From Thermoplasmata archaeon (GTDB lineage Archaea > Thermoplasmatota > Thermoplasmata > Lutacidiplasmatales > UBA184): 32,518 nucleotides of DNA. Numbering within the stretch: the stretch's first letter is position 1; each line of letters begins with the position of its first letter. The DNA is taken from NCBI GenBank assembly GCA_021791335.1, contig JAJYWS010000001.1, positions 1 through 32,518 on the forward strand, written 5' to 3'. Below are positions 24,995-32,457 of the stretch, piece after piece. The notes below the pieces were generated by a model, which saw nothing but the letters and a program-made list of their open reading frames with translations, searched no databases and was not told the origin of the DNA. The position numbers and the translations under genes are program-made.

Positions 24995-25816
24995 CTACTT
25001 GCGCCGGTTCCGGCGGCGCGCGCCCACCCGGGCTACGAATATAAAGATGGCCCCGAAGAACGCCGCAATGCCCGCGACGTACCAGATCGTGTAGTTGGCC
25101 GGCGCCGGGGGAATGTAGAACGACTGGGAGTAGGTCAAGGCCCCGCCCGCGAAGACGACGAGGCCGTGGGCGTGCGTGACCGAGATGGTGAAGGTGTGCC
25201 AGCCCGGAGAGAGCCCCAGGGTGGGGTACTTGAAGGTCAGGGCGTAGGTCTGATGGGGGGTCAGCGTCGGGATCGTGACCGATCCCACGGCGACGCCGTC
25301 CAACGACACGGTGGCGGCAAACGAAAGGATCGTCTGGGGGCCGGCAACGACCGTGGCCGTCAGGACGTACGGCCGGACCACGGTCACCGAGTAGGTCAGG
25401 TTGATCGACTGATTCTGGGTCTGGTACGTCGACGCGATGAGGAGGTGGAGCACGAGGCTCTGGCTCAGATTGTTGACCGTCAGTTTGGCGGTCAAGCCTC
25501 CAGGGCCGATCGTCGCGTTGGCCGGGAAGAAGCTGACCCCCGTCAGGTTGGAACCGGTGAGCGAGGCGTAGTAACGGATGGCGCCCGCGACGGTACCGTT
25601 CGGCAACACCGCCGGTCCCCCGGTCGCGTTGATGAAGTAGCTCCCCGCACCGGAAAGGCCGAGCACGTTCGGGCCGTGGACCGAGCCCGTCAGGTTGACC
25701 GCCGGGGGAGGAGAGGTCGCGGCGGCCGGAGGAACCGCCAGGCCCCCGAGCAGCATCGCGGCGACGATCAGAAGGGCGAGCCCCGGCCCGAGTCGGAAGG
25801 CCCCGCCGTGGTTCAT
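24995..25816 (-). CDS. Sequon-rich secreted protein with signal peptide and C-terminal membrane anchor
   Basis: 273 residues. The N-terminus has a signal peptide (hydrophobic core LALLIVAAMLLGG, likely cleavage after AAA near residue 33). The ectodomain has nine N-X-S/T sequons (e.g. NLT, NAT, NGT, NYT), then a membrane segment (YVAGIAAFFGAIFIFVA) and the basic tail RRRNRRK. The ectodomain is beta-rich and resembles CARDB/Ig-like surface domains, without a named family. The ATG at 25816 overlaps the aglB stop as ATGA; a start at 25846 would add 10 residues lying inside aglB. The coupling suggests it works with, or is a substrate of, the oligosaccharyltransferase. Confidence 0.8.
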   Translation of the reverse strand: MNHGGAFRLGPGLALLIVAAMLLGGLAVPPAAATSPPPAVNLTGSVHGPNVLGLSGAGSYFINATGGPAVLPNGTVAGAIRYYASLTGSNLTGVSFFPANATIGPGGLTAKLTVNNLSQSLVLHLLIASTYQTQNQSINLTYSVTVVRPYVLTATVVAGPQTILSFAATVSLDGVAVGSVTIPTLTPHQTYALTFKYPTLGLSPGWHTFTISVTHAHGLVVFAGGALTYSQSFYIPPAPANYTIWYVAGIAAFFGAIFIFVARVGARRRNRRK

Positions 25817-28800
25817 CGCCGGGTCCACCTCCGGGACCGGTTCCATTGGTAGAACAGGACCCCGATGACGAGGGCCAGGGCGGGGATGAACGAGACCACA
25901 GGGATCACCCAGCTGGGCAACGTGTTGGAGGGGACACCGACCGAGGGCCCGGTGACGGTGGCGTTGGGGGCTCCCACGACGACCGATGCGGTCGGAACTT
26001 CAAGGGTCAGGGTGTGCTGGACGCCGGTCGAGACGACCGTGACCGCGACCTGGACCGACTGCGGCAGGCTGGAGGCGGGGCCGACCGCGGTCAGGTTGAC
26101 CTCCAGCGTCTGGTTCGCCCCGGTGTTGAGGTAGATGGGGGCCGTCACCACCTTCCCCGACTGGAGGAGGTTGGCGGACCAGCCGAGGAGGGCCAGGTGA
26201 CCGAGGTTGGCGACGGTCGCGGTCACGTTCTCGGGCTGGTTACCGATGTTGGCGACGTAGAGGGATAGGACCGCCCGGGTCGGCCCCACCTGGGGAGCGA
26301 CCGACTGAAGCGGCCCCACCGCGGCCCCGGAGTGCGGCGCGATCAGGATGGAGGGCGCGACGCTCGCGGCCGTGGTCCCGTTGGCGAACTGGGCTTCCAC
26401 AAGGACCGTGGGGTGGGCCACCGGGGTACCCGAGGGCACCGAGATCGTGACCTCGCCCGAAATGCTCCGGGCCGGACCGGTCACCCCGAGAGTGACGTTC
26501 ACGGCCGAGAAATGGAATCCCCAGTAGGCCGGAGTCCCCACCAGCGTCAGCGAAAGGGGCTGGTTGGCGAGGCTGGTGAACGCGTACCCGAAGGAGGCGT
26601 TTCCGCCGGAGTAGGGCAGATCGGCCGAGGCGGGGCCAACGATCTGGCCGACCACGGTGTCCACGAAGCGGTAGCTCAGGGCGAGCGAGGTGGCGAGGTT
26701 TCCGGAGACGATCTGGACCTGGGCCGAGGCGGTGGCGTTCACCGGAACGCCGTACGGAGAGCCCGTGGCCGTCGCCGAAACCGAGTAGAGACCGGGGGGC
26801 AGGGCGATCGCCAGAGGGGAGTTCAGGGGGATCGACGGGAAGACGACCGACCGGTCGAGGGCGTCCTGGACGGTGAGCTGGGCCCCCGTCACGGACGCAC
26901 CGAGGGTGGAGGGAGATCGGACTTGGACCTGATCGATCCACGCCGGCGACAACACGAGGCTCAGGTTGGAGACCCCCGAAGTGAAGACCGACTCGTACTG
27001 GAAGGTGGCGAGCGGCTGCCCATCCGACGAGCTGTTGGCGTAGACGGAGTAGACCCCCGGTTCGAGCTGGGCCGAGATCCGACCCGTGGTGGTGCTCCGG
27101 ACGATCGTCGGAAGCGCGGTGTCGTTGAGGTCGGTCAGACGGATCGTGCCTGCGATCGGGCCTGGGGAACCGTCGGCCGTGAGGGTGAGGTTGACCGGCA
27201 CCAGCAAGGCGCGGCTGGTGAGCGGGATGTTGCACTGGGATGAGTTGTTCGACACGTCGCACTGGTATCCCGCGGCGGTGGTGTAGACGACCGCCGTGGT
27301 CCCGTTGGCGGTGGGGACCTGGAGGGTCACATTCACTTCGGCCTGGTAAACGCCCGGTGAAGGCAGGATAGTGGAGTACTGCCCGTTGTCCGCGGAAACC
27401 TGGACCGTCACCCCGCTCGGGGAGGTAAAGAGGATGGGGGTGGTAGCGTTAACGAGTCCGGCCTGCAAGGTGGTCAGGCTCCCGCTCACGGTCGCCCCGC
27501 CCACGGTCAGGTTAAGGGGGGCGGAGATTCGGCCGTTGCTCCCCACGGTGATGTTGGCCACGGCGGAGTAGGCCGTCCCGTTCAGCATCCCCACAGCCAA
27601 CACCGAGTAATTGCCCGTGCCGGCGTAGAATCCGCTCAGGAACTGGGTCCCGTTCACGGTCACATTGACGAGCGCGGAGGAGAGCCGCACGGTGACGTTG
27701 GCGGGGGAGAGGCCGGGGGGCAGGACGAGCCGCCCCGTCGTGTTGATCTGGGGCACGACGAGCAGGGTCAGGGACACCTGGTGGGCCCCGGGGGCGATGG
27801 TCGTGGTGTAGGTCTCCGGCGGCAGGTAGACCGTCACGCTGCCCACCTGGGCCCGGGCCCCCACCCCGTAGACGCCGGGGGCGGCCAGGAACCGGAAATT
27901 CGGCCCGCCGGTGAGGGTTTGGCTCACAGCCGTGGAACTCTCCGAGGTCAGGTTGACCTGGACCGAAACCCCCGCGGGAAGCCCCACCACCGAGAGGGCG
28001 ACCGGCACCGGGGTCAGGCTCATCGGCAGGGTCGACAACGCGGAGAGGTTGGAAGGGTCCAGCCCGCAAATGCGGGAGGCATTGAAGGCAAAGGAGGTGG
28101 CCGAGACGCAGTAGGTCGTCCCTTGGGCGAGGACCGACGGGATGTAGCCCTCCACCTGGCCCTCCCGATTGGCTCGGGTGAACAGCGAGGCGCTGCCTGC
28201 CGAGATGGTGACCGCGGCCCGGGGCGCCGGAACGACGACCGTCGAGTTGGGCGAGGTTTGCCCAACTGAAAACGAGATGCGCAGCGCGGGTACGGGGGCC
28301 AACGTGAGGGCCCGACCGGAGGAGGTGTTGTAGGCGACCATCGCCCCATAGAGGGTCGAGGTCGGGGTCGACGCCCCCTGCCACGCCGCCACGGTGTAGC
28401 TTCCCGCGGGCACCTGCAGACTGAACAACGTGCTGTTCGGTGAAACCCAGGTCGACGCTTCCCCGCCCTGCGCGTTGTAGACCTCCACGAAGGTGCGGGT
28501 CGTATTGGTCAGCGGCGCAGCCTGGACGACCGATCCCTGAAGCGGGACGGACGGAGAGAGGTTGAGCGGTGGGAAGAGGGTGGTCACTCCCCCGGAAGAG
28601 GAGGGATAGATCGAGGTGAAGCCGGAATACGGAACTCCCTGGACGGTCGTGACGGCATAGACCGAGTAGTTCCCGACCGGCAAGTCGGCCCGGGCGACCC
28701 CGTTGTTCCCCGAAAGGACGGTCGTCGAATTCCCGGCGGCCGACTCGAGGAGGCCCAGCACGGAGGCCGAGGCGTTGGCGAACGAGGGAATCTGGGTGAA

Positions 28801-31800
28801 GCGGACCGCGGCATCGGTGGCGGGCCGGCCGTCCGCCAGCACCTGAAGCGCAACGCTCTGGAAGGCCACTTCGGTGAGGTTCACGGTCATCGACTGGCCG
28901 GGAGCCTGTACCTCGACAGGGACCCCGGGGGATTGGTAGCCGGAGACCGTGGCCGAGACCGCCCGTACGGTATAGTTTCCGGGACCCAGATTGCCGAAGC
29001 TATACGTCCCCGTGGTTCCGGCGACGGTGGTGGCGACGACCCCCGAGCGGTTCCCCAGGGTGACGGTGGACCCGATCCCGGGAGCCACGCCGTTCAGCAG
29101 GACCGTCCCTCGGATGGTGGCCGATTGCAGCCCGGTGGTCGCGTTGACGACCGAACCGTTGCCCACAAACCGGGCCGTTTCGGTGTAGTTCTGCCCATCA
29201 TACCGGATGTTGAGGTTGTAGTTGCCGGGAGGCACATTCGTAAAGTCGAAGGCACCGCTCGCGTCGGTCACCTGGCTGAGCCGGGAGGTGTTGTTCCCGC
29301 CCCAGAGGAGTACCTGGGCGCCCGGGATCACCGCGTCGGTGGTCGGAATGTAGGTCGAGTTGTTGGCCGAGTTCCAGTAGACGAACCCTTGGACCCGGCC
29401 GGCGCCCAAGCGGACGGTCAATGGGAGCGGGGGAGCGTTGAGGCTCAGGCCCACCGCCGCCGGAATGTCCAAGGGGACCGTCTTGAGGTTCAGAGAGTCC
29501 TGCTGGGTGTAGGGGTCAAAACTCCCCGTCGTGATGTTGAGCGTGTCGTTCCCCGGGGGGGCGACCAGCGAAAAGGAGCCGTCCGGTCCGGTCGTCACGG
29601 TCATGTGGGGAATCCCCCAGCTGTCGAAGATCGTGACCCGGGCGCCGGGAACGGGCTGACCGTTCGGGAGCACGACCCGCCCGAGGATGGTCTGCCCCGG
29701 GTAGTACTCGAGCATCGCGCCGCCGCCGTTGAAGTAGGAGTTCGCACTGGTGTCCGCCACCCCACCCGTCTTGTTCGCGAGGCTGACGGCCGTAGGCTTG
29801 TTCATGGCCGTGAAGCAGTTGGAGTTGGTCTGGGCTTCGGTCTTGGACGGGCAGTAGTACGCGGTCTGGTAGATGACTTGGAAGTGCTGCATCATCCAGC
29901 CGGGCTCCACCGGATAGCTGGCGGCGGCGCCCGAGAGGCCGGGGATACCCCCGGAGAGCCCGACATCGGTGCCATTGTACCCGATGTAGGTTCGGAAGAT
30001 CATCGATTTATAGAACGGGGCGAAGTAGTTGATGTTGTACTGGACCGCGCCGACGTTCGCGGGCAGCTGACCGAGCGGGTAGGTGTTCCCGTCGGTTCCA
30101 AGGACCGTCACGTTGAAGAATGTGGTCGGCACCCCGACCGAGTTCACGACCCGGCCGACGAGGTCGGCGGGTGCGTAGAAGATCCCCGTGTCGGTCCCCG
30201 AGAAGGGGAAGAGCCGCATGTCGGTCATGGCGTATCGGATCGTCCAGCCGGTGTAGGCCTGGACGTCGTTGTAGACCTGCGCCACCCCCGAGAGCGGCAA
30301 CGAGTCGGCGAGGAAGTAGGAGACGGCGAAATACATCGCGTTGTCCAAGGTCATGGTCGATGGGTTGACAGGCAGATACTTGTCGGGGTTGTTGACCACG
30401 GTCTGGAAGTCCGCCGAAGTATCGACCAGAAGGTGGGTCAGTTGGGCCACGTCGATCCCATCCCGCTCGAGGGTCGACGCCAGTGAGGCGGGCAGGGTGT
30501 GCCCGCCGGTCTTGGTCATCTCCGCGAAGAGGAGGGCCGTGGTCAGAACGCCGATCGCGATCGACTCATTCTGGGCCAGGAGAAACTGACCCCCCGGGTC
30601 GATTCCGTTCTGGAAGTTGTCCGCGACGACCGGGTGCTGCCCCTGGTCCATCTCCTGGAATCCGTAGTCCCACCAACTGATGAACGCCGGTCGATCCTGG
30701 ATGGGGAGCTGGGTATCCTGCGTGCCCAGCCAACTGTACATCGCCGAATCGTACTGATTCGGGGTGTCCAGTTGGGTGCCGGCGGCCCCGAAGATGTTCT
30801 GGGCCGCCGACGACGTCGTCGGCTGGAGTCCGGGCGGGAGGGTGTTGTAGACCTGCTCCGACAGTAGGGTCTTGGTGTTTCCGGGAATCCCGGCGTCGAT
30901 CGAGATCCAGATGTTCGGCAGGAGGAGGCCGACGACTACCAGGAGGATCACGATGTGCCGCGGTTTGAGCGCCTTTCGGAACGCCGAGAACTGGCTGCGG
31001 GTATCCGAGAGGTGCGAGACCGTCCGGCGCAGCTCCGGGTACCCGGCGTAGTCGATCGCCCGGCGAAGAGTCTCGGCGGCCAGCAGGGCGAATCCGGGCG
31101 CGCCGATGAGGAAGAACTTCGACGCCGAGATCGGCAGGTAGACGGAGAGGACGCCGAAGACCAGGAAGACCAGCCCGACCCGGGAATACCGAGCGCGGAT
31201 CCAGCCCCAGGCGTACAGGGCGACGCCGACCAGGGCCAGATAGAAGGTGACGAGACCGTAGCCGATCACCAACTGGTCCAACGACGGGGCCTGGGCTTCG
31301 GCCACCGTGGAGTAGATCAGGGTCTTGACGAAGTACCCCTGGCCCGTGACGATATTGATAAAGAAGTTCGGCAGGAAGAGCGCGAGCACCAGGGCGCCGG
31401 CCAGATAGGTCCCGATCAGGAGGGGGATCGAAAACACCCAAGGCACATCCCGCATGAACATGAACGGCAGCAGCAGGAGCAGCGCGCCGAAGAACAGGAG
31501 GAGCGGGAGGTCGAACCAACCGGCAAACTCGTGCTGGACGATGTAGTACGGGAACGCCATCGGGAAGCCGATGATCCCGACGATCAGCGTGACGATGTAC
31601 GTCCCGAACATGTCGACATGGCGGATGCGCTCGATGATGAACCCCACCGTGAGGAAGATCGCGACGACCGCGACGAAGTAGGTATACCCCTGCCAGGAGA
31701 GGGCGAGCGCTCCAAAACAGACCCCGGTAAAGACGGCCCACTTGACCGCCATCCGTTCCTCCCGCAGGAAGGCCTTGAGGCCCCGCCCGATCTCCCGAGG

Positions 31801-32406
31801 CTGCCGGTAGCTCACGACCCACCGTCGGGTGCCGGTGGCCTTGAGGGTCCGGAGGTAGGCGTAGACGGTGATCAGGATCACGAAGGTGTAGAACGACAGG
31901 TAGTTGCCGTACCCGAGGGTGGAGGAGTCGATGCTCGCCGGAAAGAACGGGAAGATCATCGCGGCGATGAGGCCCATCCGACGGGACGAGACCTCCTTCC
32001 CGATCAGGTACACCGGAAAGACCGACAGGGCGGCCCACAGGGGCCCCTGCAGGTTCAGGAAGAAGGCCCCGGCGGCGTTCGCGTTCCCGCCGAAGAACGG
32101 CGCGAAGACGAGGCCCAGAATGGCGTTCATCCAGTCGAAGAGCGGCTCCCGGGGGTTGATCGCGCCGAAGGGGTACTTGAGGAGCGGATCCAGGATCAGG
32201 TTGGTGTGGTTCAGGATGATGTAGGTCATCACCCGCGAGTGGTAGTACGAGTCGGAACCCCCCGCGTAGACGTAGAGGTTGCCGAACTCCTCCAGGACGG
32301 GGACATTGAAGATGGTCCGGATCGCAAAGGCGAGACCGAAGGCCGTGAAGAGTAGGGCGATGGTCCACCCATGACGGTGCCACCACTCCCGCTGCGACGA
32401 ATCCAT
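25813..32406 (-). CDS. aglB: Oligosaccharyltransferase AglB (STT3) with giant modular extracellular C-terminal extension
   Basis: 2197 residues; typical AglB proteins have about 600-1000. Residues 1 to about 500 hold about 13 membrane segments. The first acidic metal motif is GGSDSYYH (D52); the external-loop motif TVAE (367-370) matches TIxE/SVSE; WWDYG is at 578-582. These define the enzyme that transfers a lipid-linked glycan to Asn in N-X-S/T at the outer face of the membrane. The second metal motif (DxD/DxH) is not evident: the region reads STLGYGNYL (162-170). From about residue 900 to 2160 follow about ten beta-sandwich-type modules resembling carboxypeptidase-regulatory domains, each with a PGxYxVxA-like strand, and more than 40 sequons, then a membrane segment (about 2165-2185) and RSRRWTRR. 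No frameshift or repeat of the enzyme part is seen. It heads a run of minus-strand genes down to 23491. Confidence 0.92.
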   Translation of the reverse strand: MDSSQREWWHRHGWTIALLFTAFGLAFAIRTIFNVPVLEEFGNLYVYAGGSDSYYHSRVMTYIILNHTNLILDPLLKYPFGAINPREPLFDWMNAILGLVFAPFFGGNANAAGAFFLNLQGPLWAALSVFPVYLIGKEVSSRRMGLIAAMIFPFFPASIDSSTLGYGNYLSFYTFVILITVYAYLRTLKATGTRRWVVSYRQPREIGRGLKAFLREERMAVKWAVFTGVCFGALALSWQGYTYFVAVVAIFLTVGFIIERIRHVDMFGTYIVTLIVGIIGFPMAFPYYIVQHEFAGWFDLPLLLFFGALLLLLPFMFMRDVPWVFSIPLLIGTYLAGALVLALFLPNFFINIVTGQGYFVKTLIYSTVAEAQAPSLDQLVIGYGLVTFYLALVGVALYAWGWIRARYSRVGLVFLVFGVLSVYLPISASKFFLIGAPGFALLAAETLRRAIDYAGYPELRRTVSHLSDTRSQFSAFRKALKPRHIVILLVVVGLLLPNIWISIDAGIPGNTKTLLSEQVYNTLPPGLQPTTSSAAQNIFGAAGTQLDTPNQYDSAMYSWLGTQDTQLPIQDRPAFISWWDYGFQEMDQGQHPVVADNFQNGIDPGGQFLLAQNESIAIGVLTTALLFAEMTKTGGHTLPASLASTLERDGIDVAQLTHLLVDTSADFQTVVNNPDKYLPVNPSTMTLDNAMYFAVSYFLADSLPLSGVAQVYNDVQAYTGWTIRYAMTDMRLFPFSGTDTGIFYAPADLVGRVVNSVGVPTTFFNVTVLGTDGNTYPLGQLPANVGAVQYNINYFAPFYKSMIFRTYIGYNGTDVGLSGGIPGLSGAAASYPVEPGWMMQHFQVIYQTAYYCPSKTEAQTNSNCFTAMNKPTAVSLANKTGGVADTSANSYFNGGGAMLEYYPGQTILGRVVLPNGQPVPGARVTIFDSWGIPHMTVTTGPDGSFSLVAPPGNDTLNITTGSFDPYTQQDSLNLKTVPLDIPAAVGLSLNAPPLPLTVRLGAGRVQGFVYWNSANNSTYIPTTDAVIPGAQVLLWGGNNTSRLSQVTDASGAFDFTNVPPGNYNLNIRYDGQNYTETARFVGNGSVVNATTGLQSATIRGTVLLNGVAPGIGSTVTLGNRSGVVATTVAGTTGTYSFGNLGPGNYTVRAVSATVSGYQSPGVPVEVQAPGQSMTVNLTEVAFQSVALQVLADGRPATDAAVRFTQIPSFANASASVLGLLESAAGNSTTVLSGNNGVARADLPVGNYSVYAVTTVQGVPYSGFTSIYPSSSGGVTTLFPPLNLSPSVPLQGSVVQAAPLTNTTRTFVEVYNAQGGEASTWVSPNSTLFSLQVPAGSYTVAAWQGASTPTSTLYGAMVAYNTSSGRALTLAPVPALRISFSVGQTSPNSTVVVPAPRAAVTISAGSASLFTRANREGQVEGYIPSVLAQGTTYCVSATSFAFNASRICGLDPSNLSALSTLPMSLTPVPVALSVVGLPAGVSVQVNLTSESSTAVSQTLTGGPNFRFLAAPGVYGVGARAQVGSVTVYLPPETYTTTIAPGAHQVSLTLLVVPQINTTGRLVLPPGLSPANVTVRLSSALVNVTVNGTQFLSGFYAGTGNYSVLAVGMLNGTAYSAVANITVGSNGRISAPLNLTVGGATVSGSLTTLQAGLVNATTPILFTSPSGVTVQVSADNGQYSTILPSPGVYQAEVNVTLQVPTANGTTAVVYTTAAGYQCDVSNNSSQCNIPLTSRALLVPVNLTLTADGSPGPIAGTIRLTDLNDTALPTIVRSTTTGRISAQLEPGVYSVYANSSSDGQPLATFQYESVFTSGVSNLSLVLSPAWIDQVQVRSPSTLGASVTGAQLTVQDALDRSVVFPSIPLNSPLAIALPPGLYSVSATATGSPYGVPVNATASAQVQIVSGNLATSLALSYRFVDTVVGQIVGPASADLPYSGGNASFGYAFTSLANQPLSLTLVGTPAYWGFHFSAVNVTLGVTGPARSISGEVTISVPSGTPVAHPTVLVEAQFANGTTAASVAPSILIAPHSGAAVGPLQSVAPQVGPTRAVLSLYVANIGNQPENVTATVANLGHLALLGWSANLLQSGKVVTAPIYLNTGANQTLEVNLTAVGPASSLPQSVQVAVTVVSTGVQHTLTLEVPTASVVVGAPNATVTGPSVGVPSNTLPSWVIPVVSFIPALALVIGVLFYQWNRSRRWTRR
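26750..29710 (-). repeat. Array of about ten beta-sandwich modules within AglB
   Basis: Diverged protein repeats marked by a PGxYxVxA-type strand occur near residues 953 (PPGNDTLNI), 1061 (PPGNYNLNI), 1143 (GPGNYTVRA), 1247 (PVGNYSVYA), 1333 (PAGSYTVAA), 1512 (APGVYGVGA), 1598 (GTGNYSVLA), 1687 (SPGVYQAEV), 1785 (EPGVYSVYA) and 1872 (PPGLYSVSA). Spacing is about 80-180 residues. The DNA copies are not identical, so this is an old array, not a recent tandem duplication. Confidence 0.65.
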
Positions 32407-32447: not shown

Positions 32448-32457
32448 GTATAAATAG
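32448..32457 (-). promoter_or_regulatory. TATA box for aglB (possibly bidirectional)
   Basis: Minus strand CTATTTATAC, centred about 46 nt before the aglB ATG, giving a leader of about 20 nt. The plus-strand reading GTATAAATAG could drive a divergent gene leaving the window: the frame from ATG 32465 (or ATG 32507) is open to the right edge, but too little is seen to call it. Confidence 0.6.

Follow-up and report, generated by a model that had tools for sequence, protein, structure and literature searches.

The oligosaccharyltransferase AglB of Thermoplasmata carries a C-terminal rod of roughly a dozen exocellular modules, and throughout the class its gene is translationally coupled to a gene for a single-pass membrane protein that is most likely a second subunit of AglB. 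Descriptions of archaeal oligosaccharyltransferase (OST) give it one subunit and a compact exodomain. The architecture that we report, with its candidate for a second subunit, is class-wide and apparently undescribed so far; we found no description of the Thermoplasmata AglB extension or of the partner in the open-access literature. The starting point was a stretch of 32,518 nucleotides from a Thermoplasmata archaeon, here called the window, and the architecture, conservation, sequon statistics and gene coupling were all determined by computation.

The aglB gene of the window (Table 1) is open from end to end as a single uninterrupted ORF of 2197 aa on the minus strand, as an earlier note made from the sequence alone had read it. 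The ORF is real, and it encodes an AglB/STT3 oligosaccharyltransferase with an extension of ~1,260 residues. It lies ~110 nt from the end of the contig. In a six-frame search of the 1.41-Mb, 93%-complete genome no second STT3 was detected, and aglB is present as a single copy.

Table 1. Features of the aglB locus (positions in the window)
Feature	Residues	Position	Strand	Remark
Partner gene, 273 aa		24995..25816	(-)	ATG shares ATGA with the aglB stop
GGAGGTGG, Shine-Dalgarno-like, within the aglB 3' end		25825..25832	(-)	8 nt upstream of the partner ATG
Extended aglB, 2197 aa (P0001)		25813..32406	(-)	ATG at 32406, TGA at 25813
Candidate TATA box TTTATA		32449..32454	(-)	~43 nt upstream of the aglB start; by eye
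N-terminal multi-TM catalytic region	1-508	30883..32406	(-)	hydropathy, model, Foldseek to AfAglB
D52, first DXD motif (GGSD)	52	32251..32253	(-)	invariant in 47 class sequences
NYL replacing the second DXD motif (Asn168-Tyr-Leu170)	168-170	31897..31905	(-)	
TVAE (TIXE motif)	367-370	31297..31308	(-)	
Exocellular catalytic core	509-890	29737..30882	(-)	AglB_core-like match, model
WWDYG	578-582	30661..30675	(-)	invariant in 47 class sequences
Rod, with about a dozen beta-sandwich modules in tandem	891-2150	25957..29736	(-)	48 N-X-S/T sequons
First rod modules	906-1178	28873..29691	(-)	CarboxypepD_reg/SpaA (transthyretin-like) type
Last rod module	2058-2124	26035..26235	(-)	weak CARDB-like (E 0.39)
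C-terminal TM helix, then basic tail	2167-2192	25831..25908	(-)	hydropathy, model

Judged on the whole core, the protein is clearly homologous to AglB/STT3, although its metal site is atypical. The GT-C multi-TM core shared by AglB, STT3 and PglB was recognised by PF02516, TIGR04154 and Foldseek. The model for archaeosortase-associated STT3 (TIGR04154) matched residues 17-850 (E 3.5e-62), yet the score of 210.9 bits falls below the curated cut-off of 450 bits. PF02516 scored 27.2 bits in the six-frame search, over its cut-off, and 21.8 bits in the Pfam search, just under it; the latter search gave weak matches to STT3 and AglB_core. Residues 1-1190 were modelled with a pLDDT of 76, and the best PDB match of the predicted core in Foldseek was Archaeoglobus fulgidus AglB (AfAglB; 7e9s, E 2.7e-24).

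The earlier note had called the STT3 core complete. D52, TVAE and WWDYG are indeed present, but the second DXD motif reads NYL. R86, E370, D52 and WWDYG are all invariant among the 47 aligned class sequences. The second motif is DHD in most relatives, and an ungapped register from the upstream RS/SS places the three forms in line: RSVLSNADHD in family f20, RSIATFGNYL in f2 and SSTLGYGNYL in the window sequence. NYL was found in 27 of 30 sequences of the window genus, with DYQ or DYL in the other three, and also in families f2 and f3. This NYL form of the motif in the window lineage is a new observation. For the DK/MI motif the alignment gave no unambiguous match, and the model has low confidence around residues 579-602. 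Two departures were seen in other families: f19 has RMH at the second DXD position with a D upstream, and the two f8 sequences L143 and L144, very diverged AglBs of 1,931-1,967 aa with the partner still adjacent, contain no WWDYG by simple pattern, so that their catalytic motif is possibly changed.

The window protein shares the GT-C multi-TM region, TIXE and WWDYG with AglB-L of Archaeoglobus fulgidus and Pyrococcus, for neither of which a C-terminal TM or a coupled CARDB partner is, to our knowledge, known. AfAglB has 868 aa in total, of which 369 residues are exocellular (PMC3703281). Its metal is bound directly by Asp47, Asp161 and His163 and indirectly by Glu360, and its second DXD motif is an intact DHH (Asp161-His-His163), in contrast to NYL in the window protein (PMC8342417). 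Because the site of Asp161 and His163 reads NYL here, two of the three direct protein ligands of the metal are missing.

The extension was predicted as an all-beta chain (model of residues 1000-2197: pLDDT 80, pTM 0.41), in which the relative positions of the modules are not to be trusted because of the low pTM. By eye, the DSSP string contains ~12-13 beta-sandwiches, somewhat above the ten or so of the earlier note. The CarboxypepD_reg and CARDB families that the note had suggested searching for differed in outcome: Pfam found CarboxypepD_reg modules from residue 906, and SpaA/SdrD_B-type modules up to residue 1178, while the CARDB likeness of the last module is very weak in the window protein (E 0.39) and significant in relatives outside the class. 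At its C-terminal end the rod passes into a low-confidence linker of ~25 residues and then the helix at ~2167-2192. Fold searches with the rod returned only generic tandem beta-sandwich chains (best whole-chain TM ~0.1). The rod evolves fast and its fold matches are generic, so that no particular binding surface stands out. Recent tandem duplication of modules was considered and rejected; repeats in the DNA are only short and weak.

The extended AglB is the class-standard form in Thermoplasmata, and not the singular fusion of a glycan writer to a substrate that it had first seemed. It was matched in 59 of the 61 sampled relatives, and nearly every uninterrupted class copy is one frame of ~2,000-2,400 aa; in the finished genome of Ferroplasma acidarmanus Fer1 it is a single frame of 2,062 aa. 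Copies of the window genus measure ~2,200-2,430 aa (some of these lengths include upstream open codons), those of other class families mostly ~2,040-2,400 aa, and those of f8 ~1,930-1,970 aa. In the genus the rod accounts for 1,256-1,274 residues; most of the remaining class families have rods of 1,115-1,245, and f17 has one of 1,368. The C-terminal membrane anchor of the earlier note recurs, as TM and basic tail, in essentially every complete class copy. A quick tree placed the class in one supported clade, f17 excepted. A split frame (L044, E-plasma) and an in-frame TAG (L089) occur in single copies and are possibly sequencing errors.

Elsewhere in the phylum the extensions vary, with total lengths from 930 to >3,000 aa: compact forms of 926-1,004 aa (f35/f40/f42), intermediate forms of ~1,120-1,430 aa, longer forms of ~2,340-2,740 aa, and forms of >3,000 aa in f37/f43. 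In the last two families (L158, L159, L162) the extension is ~1,870 residues, and the partner was not placed alongside. The true TIGR04154 members of the phylum are the copies of ~930-1,000 aa in f35, f40 and f42; these compact AglBs (L093-L096), which score over the cut-off, stand alongside a longer copy, and the quick tree sets them apart on a deep branch of their own.

Against an 87%-identical relative, dN/dS was 0.033 for the TM core, 0.036 for the exocellular core, 0.064 for the first modules and 0.135 for the whole rod, indicating purifying selection. Within the genus, identity was 0.635 in the core, dropped from 0.55 to ~0.27-0.45 along the rod, and was 0.52 in the TM tail. A natural half-rod occurs in the AglB of Acidiplasma aeolicum and two relatives (L034, L036, L039; 1,433-1,454 aa), which aligns to Ferroplasma residues 2 to ~1,150-1,227 and ~1,870-2,062. 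About 640-730 aa of the mid-rod are gone or replaced. The partner remains, and so do the first modules, the TM and the C-terminal ~190 aa. This indicates that the two ends of the rod matter most, since the mid-rod deletion spares both.

Directly downstream of aglB on the same strand, a partner gene was found in all class representatives with a readable flank, mostly at a distance of -4, and the window partner overlaps the aglB stop in this way (Table 1). A longer in-frame ORF of the partner starts at 25846. The protein has a hydrophobic, signal-peptide-like N-terminus, a CARDB-like exodomain, a single TM and a basic tail, and in many families its C-terminus carries a conserved PPNYxWIYY...GRR...PKWKK. 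A profile search of 130 genomes gave strong partner matches in class families f1, f8, f15 and f19-f23, once per genome in nearly all matched genomes of class families. Three f8 genomes had no match to the profile, possibly as a result of divergence. Outside the class, the partner stands next to aglB only in f30 (by profile) and f41 (by local search), and the other matches to the profile there are CARDB only. As a named known family the partner could not be placed: 37 of 42 members matched CARDB, along with CARDB-type PDB entries, and nothing else. The coupled partner gene is a new observation; like the altered metal motif, it had escaped the earlier note. Its translational coupling to aglB could instead reflect dosage alone.

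The rod contains 48 N-X-S/T sequons, in agreement with the more than 40 counted in the earlier note, where local shuffling gives 14.9 +/- 3.4 (3.2 times chance; 0 of 2000 shuffles reached 48). The core of the same chain has 5 sequons against 4.9 expected and thus no excess. As surface controls we took four frames of the same genome that were found through their CarboxypepD_reg modules and each end in a TM-like segment; observed over expected sequons were 16/6.6, 20/5.3, 20/7.5 and 20/6.1. Ordinary surface proteins of this genome thus have a 2.4-3.8-fold excess, and the partner has 8 sequons where 1.9 are expected, compared to 6 observed and 5.7 expected in ten other window proteins pooled. Because same-genome controls share it, the sequon excess is a general trait of exocellular proteins here. 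The rod itself is probably glycosylated. With a single STT3 found, and sequons enriched about threefold in the surface proteins but not in the other window proteins, N-glycosylation probably continues in the window organism. PF00953 (ALG7/AglH-type) had no match in the genome, nor in the Haloferax control, so that its absence here carries no information.

Most families of the class have a strong excess in the rod, but it is weak or absent in f9 (13/9.3), f13 (17/16.0), f22 (22/17.7) and one genus of f20 (14/9.3); outside the class, f29 has kept the rod with no excess at all (17/17.1). The excesses of rod and partner correlate (rho 0.54 over 94 loci, although the loci are related and the p-value is not independent). 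The 87%-identical relative keeps 45 of the 48 sequons, compared to 20 of the 27 other Asn. Genus-wide, the conservation of sequon Asn is only slightly higher than that of other rod Asn (0.45 vs 0.37). We rejected sequon load as a conserved general function of the rod, since families without an excess keep the rod and other surface proteins share the excess.

The rod resembles eukaryotic NOMO, which belongs to the BOS complex in the multipass translocon of the ER, in layout: an exoplasmic chain of transthyretin-like modules with a C-terminal TM, a trait common to many stalk proteins. Its best PDB profile match was NOMO2 (9c7v, E 9e-12), across separate short stretches, and NOMO Pfam domains scored over cut-off in the f31 and f36 extensions, where the generic PF13620 scores much higher. 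The 50 best fold matches of the rod do not include NOMO, and no whole-chain match to NOMO along the rod was found. Unlike the window rod, NOMO is not fused to STT3. Orthology was rejected, the similarity being at the level of single modules. NOMO is therefore a works-like comparison only, as the matches are short and separate and the fold search is generic. Caution against over-reading it is due also because the human NOMO translocon is without OST (PMC7505659). CarboxypepD_reg, SdrD-B and pilin-type adhesin stalks share module families and fold neighbours with the rod, but they are bacterial and have no fused glycosyltransferase. The accessory subunits of eukaryotic OST and TRAP alpha/beta lie near STT3; each spans the membrane once and has a short basic tail and, on the exoplasmic side, a beta-sandwich. 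The layout proposed for the partner is similar, and no sequence match between the partner and these proteins was found.

We infer from these observations that AglB of Thermoplasmata is clamped in the membrane and uses an accessory arm and a coupled partner for docking to substrates or complexes, a reading in which we have middling confidence. The compact globular end of an ordinary AglB would have expanded into the rod of about a dozen exocellular modules, the far end of which would re-enter the membrane, so that the arm would be held at its two ends next to the active site. The partner, as a single-pass CARDB protein, would join AglB as its second subunit. Together, arm and partner would play the role of the separate accessory subunits of eukaryotic OST: through them the enzyme may dock to surface partners, to its substrates or to the Sec exit site, and they may keep acceptor chains close to the catalytic site. 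Being exocellular, both would themselves be N-glycosylated, as any surface protein would. A docking arm was one of the uses proposed in the earlier note, and it stays the best reading of the extension. Against it stand the fast evolution of a rod whose fold matches are generic, a coupling that dosage alone could explain, the three f8 genomes with no match to the partner profile, the dispensability of the mid-rod in one lineage and the many identical traces that a passive spacer or shield would leave. A fuller version, a dedicated two-subunit OST ancestral to Thermoplasmata with a NOMO-like scaffold in cis, a CARDB subunit, a stable OST-translocon assembly and, in the window order, a re-built metal site, seems to us improbable.

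Such a spacer would bind nothing, and would stabilise or shield the catalytic domain against acid or proteases or set its distance from the membrane. The fast drift of the rod sequence at fixed length and the tolerated loss of the mid-rod fit this, and Ferroplasma, Acidiplasma and Thermoplasma are acidophiles. However, the first modules and the C-terminus are more conserved than a spacer needs, long extensions occur in families outside the class as well, and the coupled partner is left unexplained; we regard a purely passive rod as rather unlikely. The rod might alternatively be a tethered glycoprotein coat, the major self-substrate of its own catalytic site and part of the glycocalyx. In favour of this, the archaea concerned are often without an S-layer, Cuniculiplasma having AglB and no S-layer (PMC5155288); the excess is confined to the rod of a chain whose core has none, and the sequons are well kept in the close relative. 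The Picrophilus STT3 protein PTO0786 was detected in an LC-MS secretome, an independent sign of expression, but that secretome also held cytosolic proteins (PMC8345856). The idea, already raised in the earlier note, that the rod is the enzyme's own major substrate is weakened by the same excess in other surface proteins of the genome, the partner included, by the families (f9, f13, f22, f29 and part of f20) that retain the rod and have a small excess or none, and by the genus-wide figures, where sequon Asn have only a slight edge in conservation over the remaining Asn of the rod. A coat that spends one OST on every molecule would also be costly. We consider a coat doubtful.

In the window order, loss of the second DXD motif could instead mean a catalytically weakened AglB whose role at the surface has become chiefly structural. 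The prevalence of NYL or DY(Q/L) in the genus and of NYL in f2 and f3 would agree with this, as does the direct metal binding by the corresponding AfAglB residues, Asp161 and His163 (PMC8342417). On the other side, D52, E370, R86 and WWDYG are retained, core dN/dS is ~0.03, and the only STT3 found coexists with the roughly threefold enrichment of sequons in surface proteins, which makes weakening very unlikely. That two genes, one for aglB and one for a surface protein, had been joined by a chimeric assembly or a frameshift might have been suspected from the nearby contig end and from a few relatives with split frames (e.g. L044). The survey of relatives refutes it: the same single frame recurs in dozens of independent assemblies, including the finished Fer1 genome, and separate aglB and surface-protein genes were searched for in relatives and not found. 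The chance that the fusion is an artefact is negligible.

A class-wide arm with a coupled partner suggests that archaea, like eukaryotes, evolved an accessory architecture around STT3. The partner offers a concrete and testable candidate for an accessory subunit of OST in archaea, and the metal motif lost in one order could be used to probe the number of metal ligands that OST requires. Carriers of the architecture include the cultured Thermoplasma, Ferroplasma, Picrophilus and Acidiplasma, the last with its natural half-rod, which makes these proposals directly testable.
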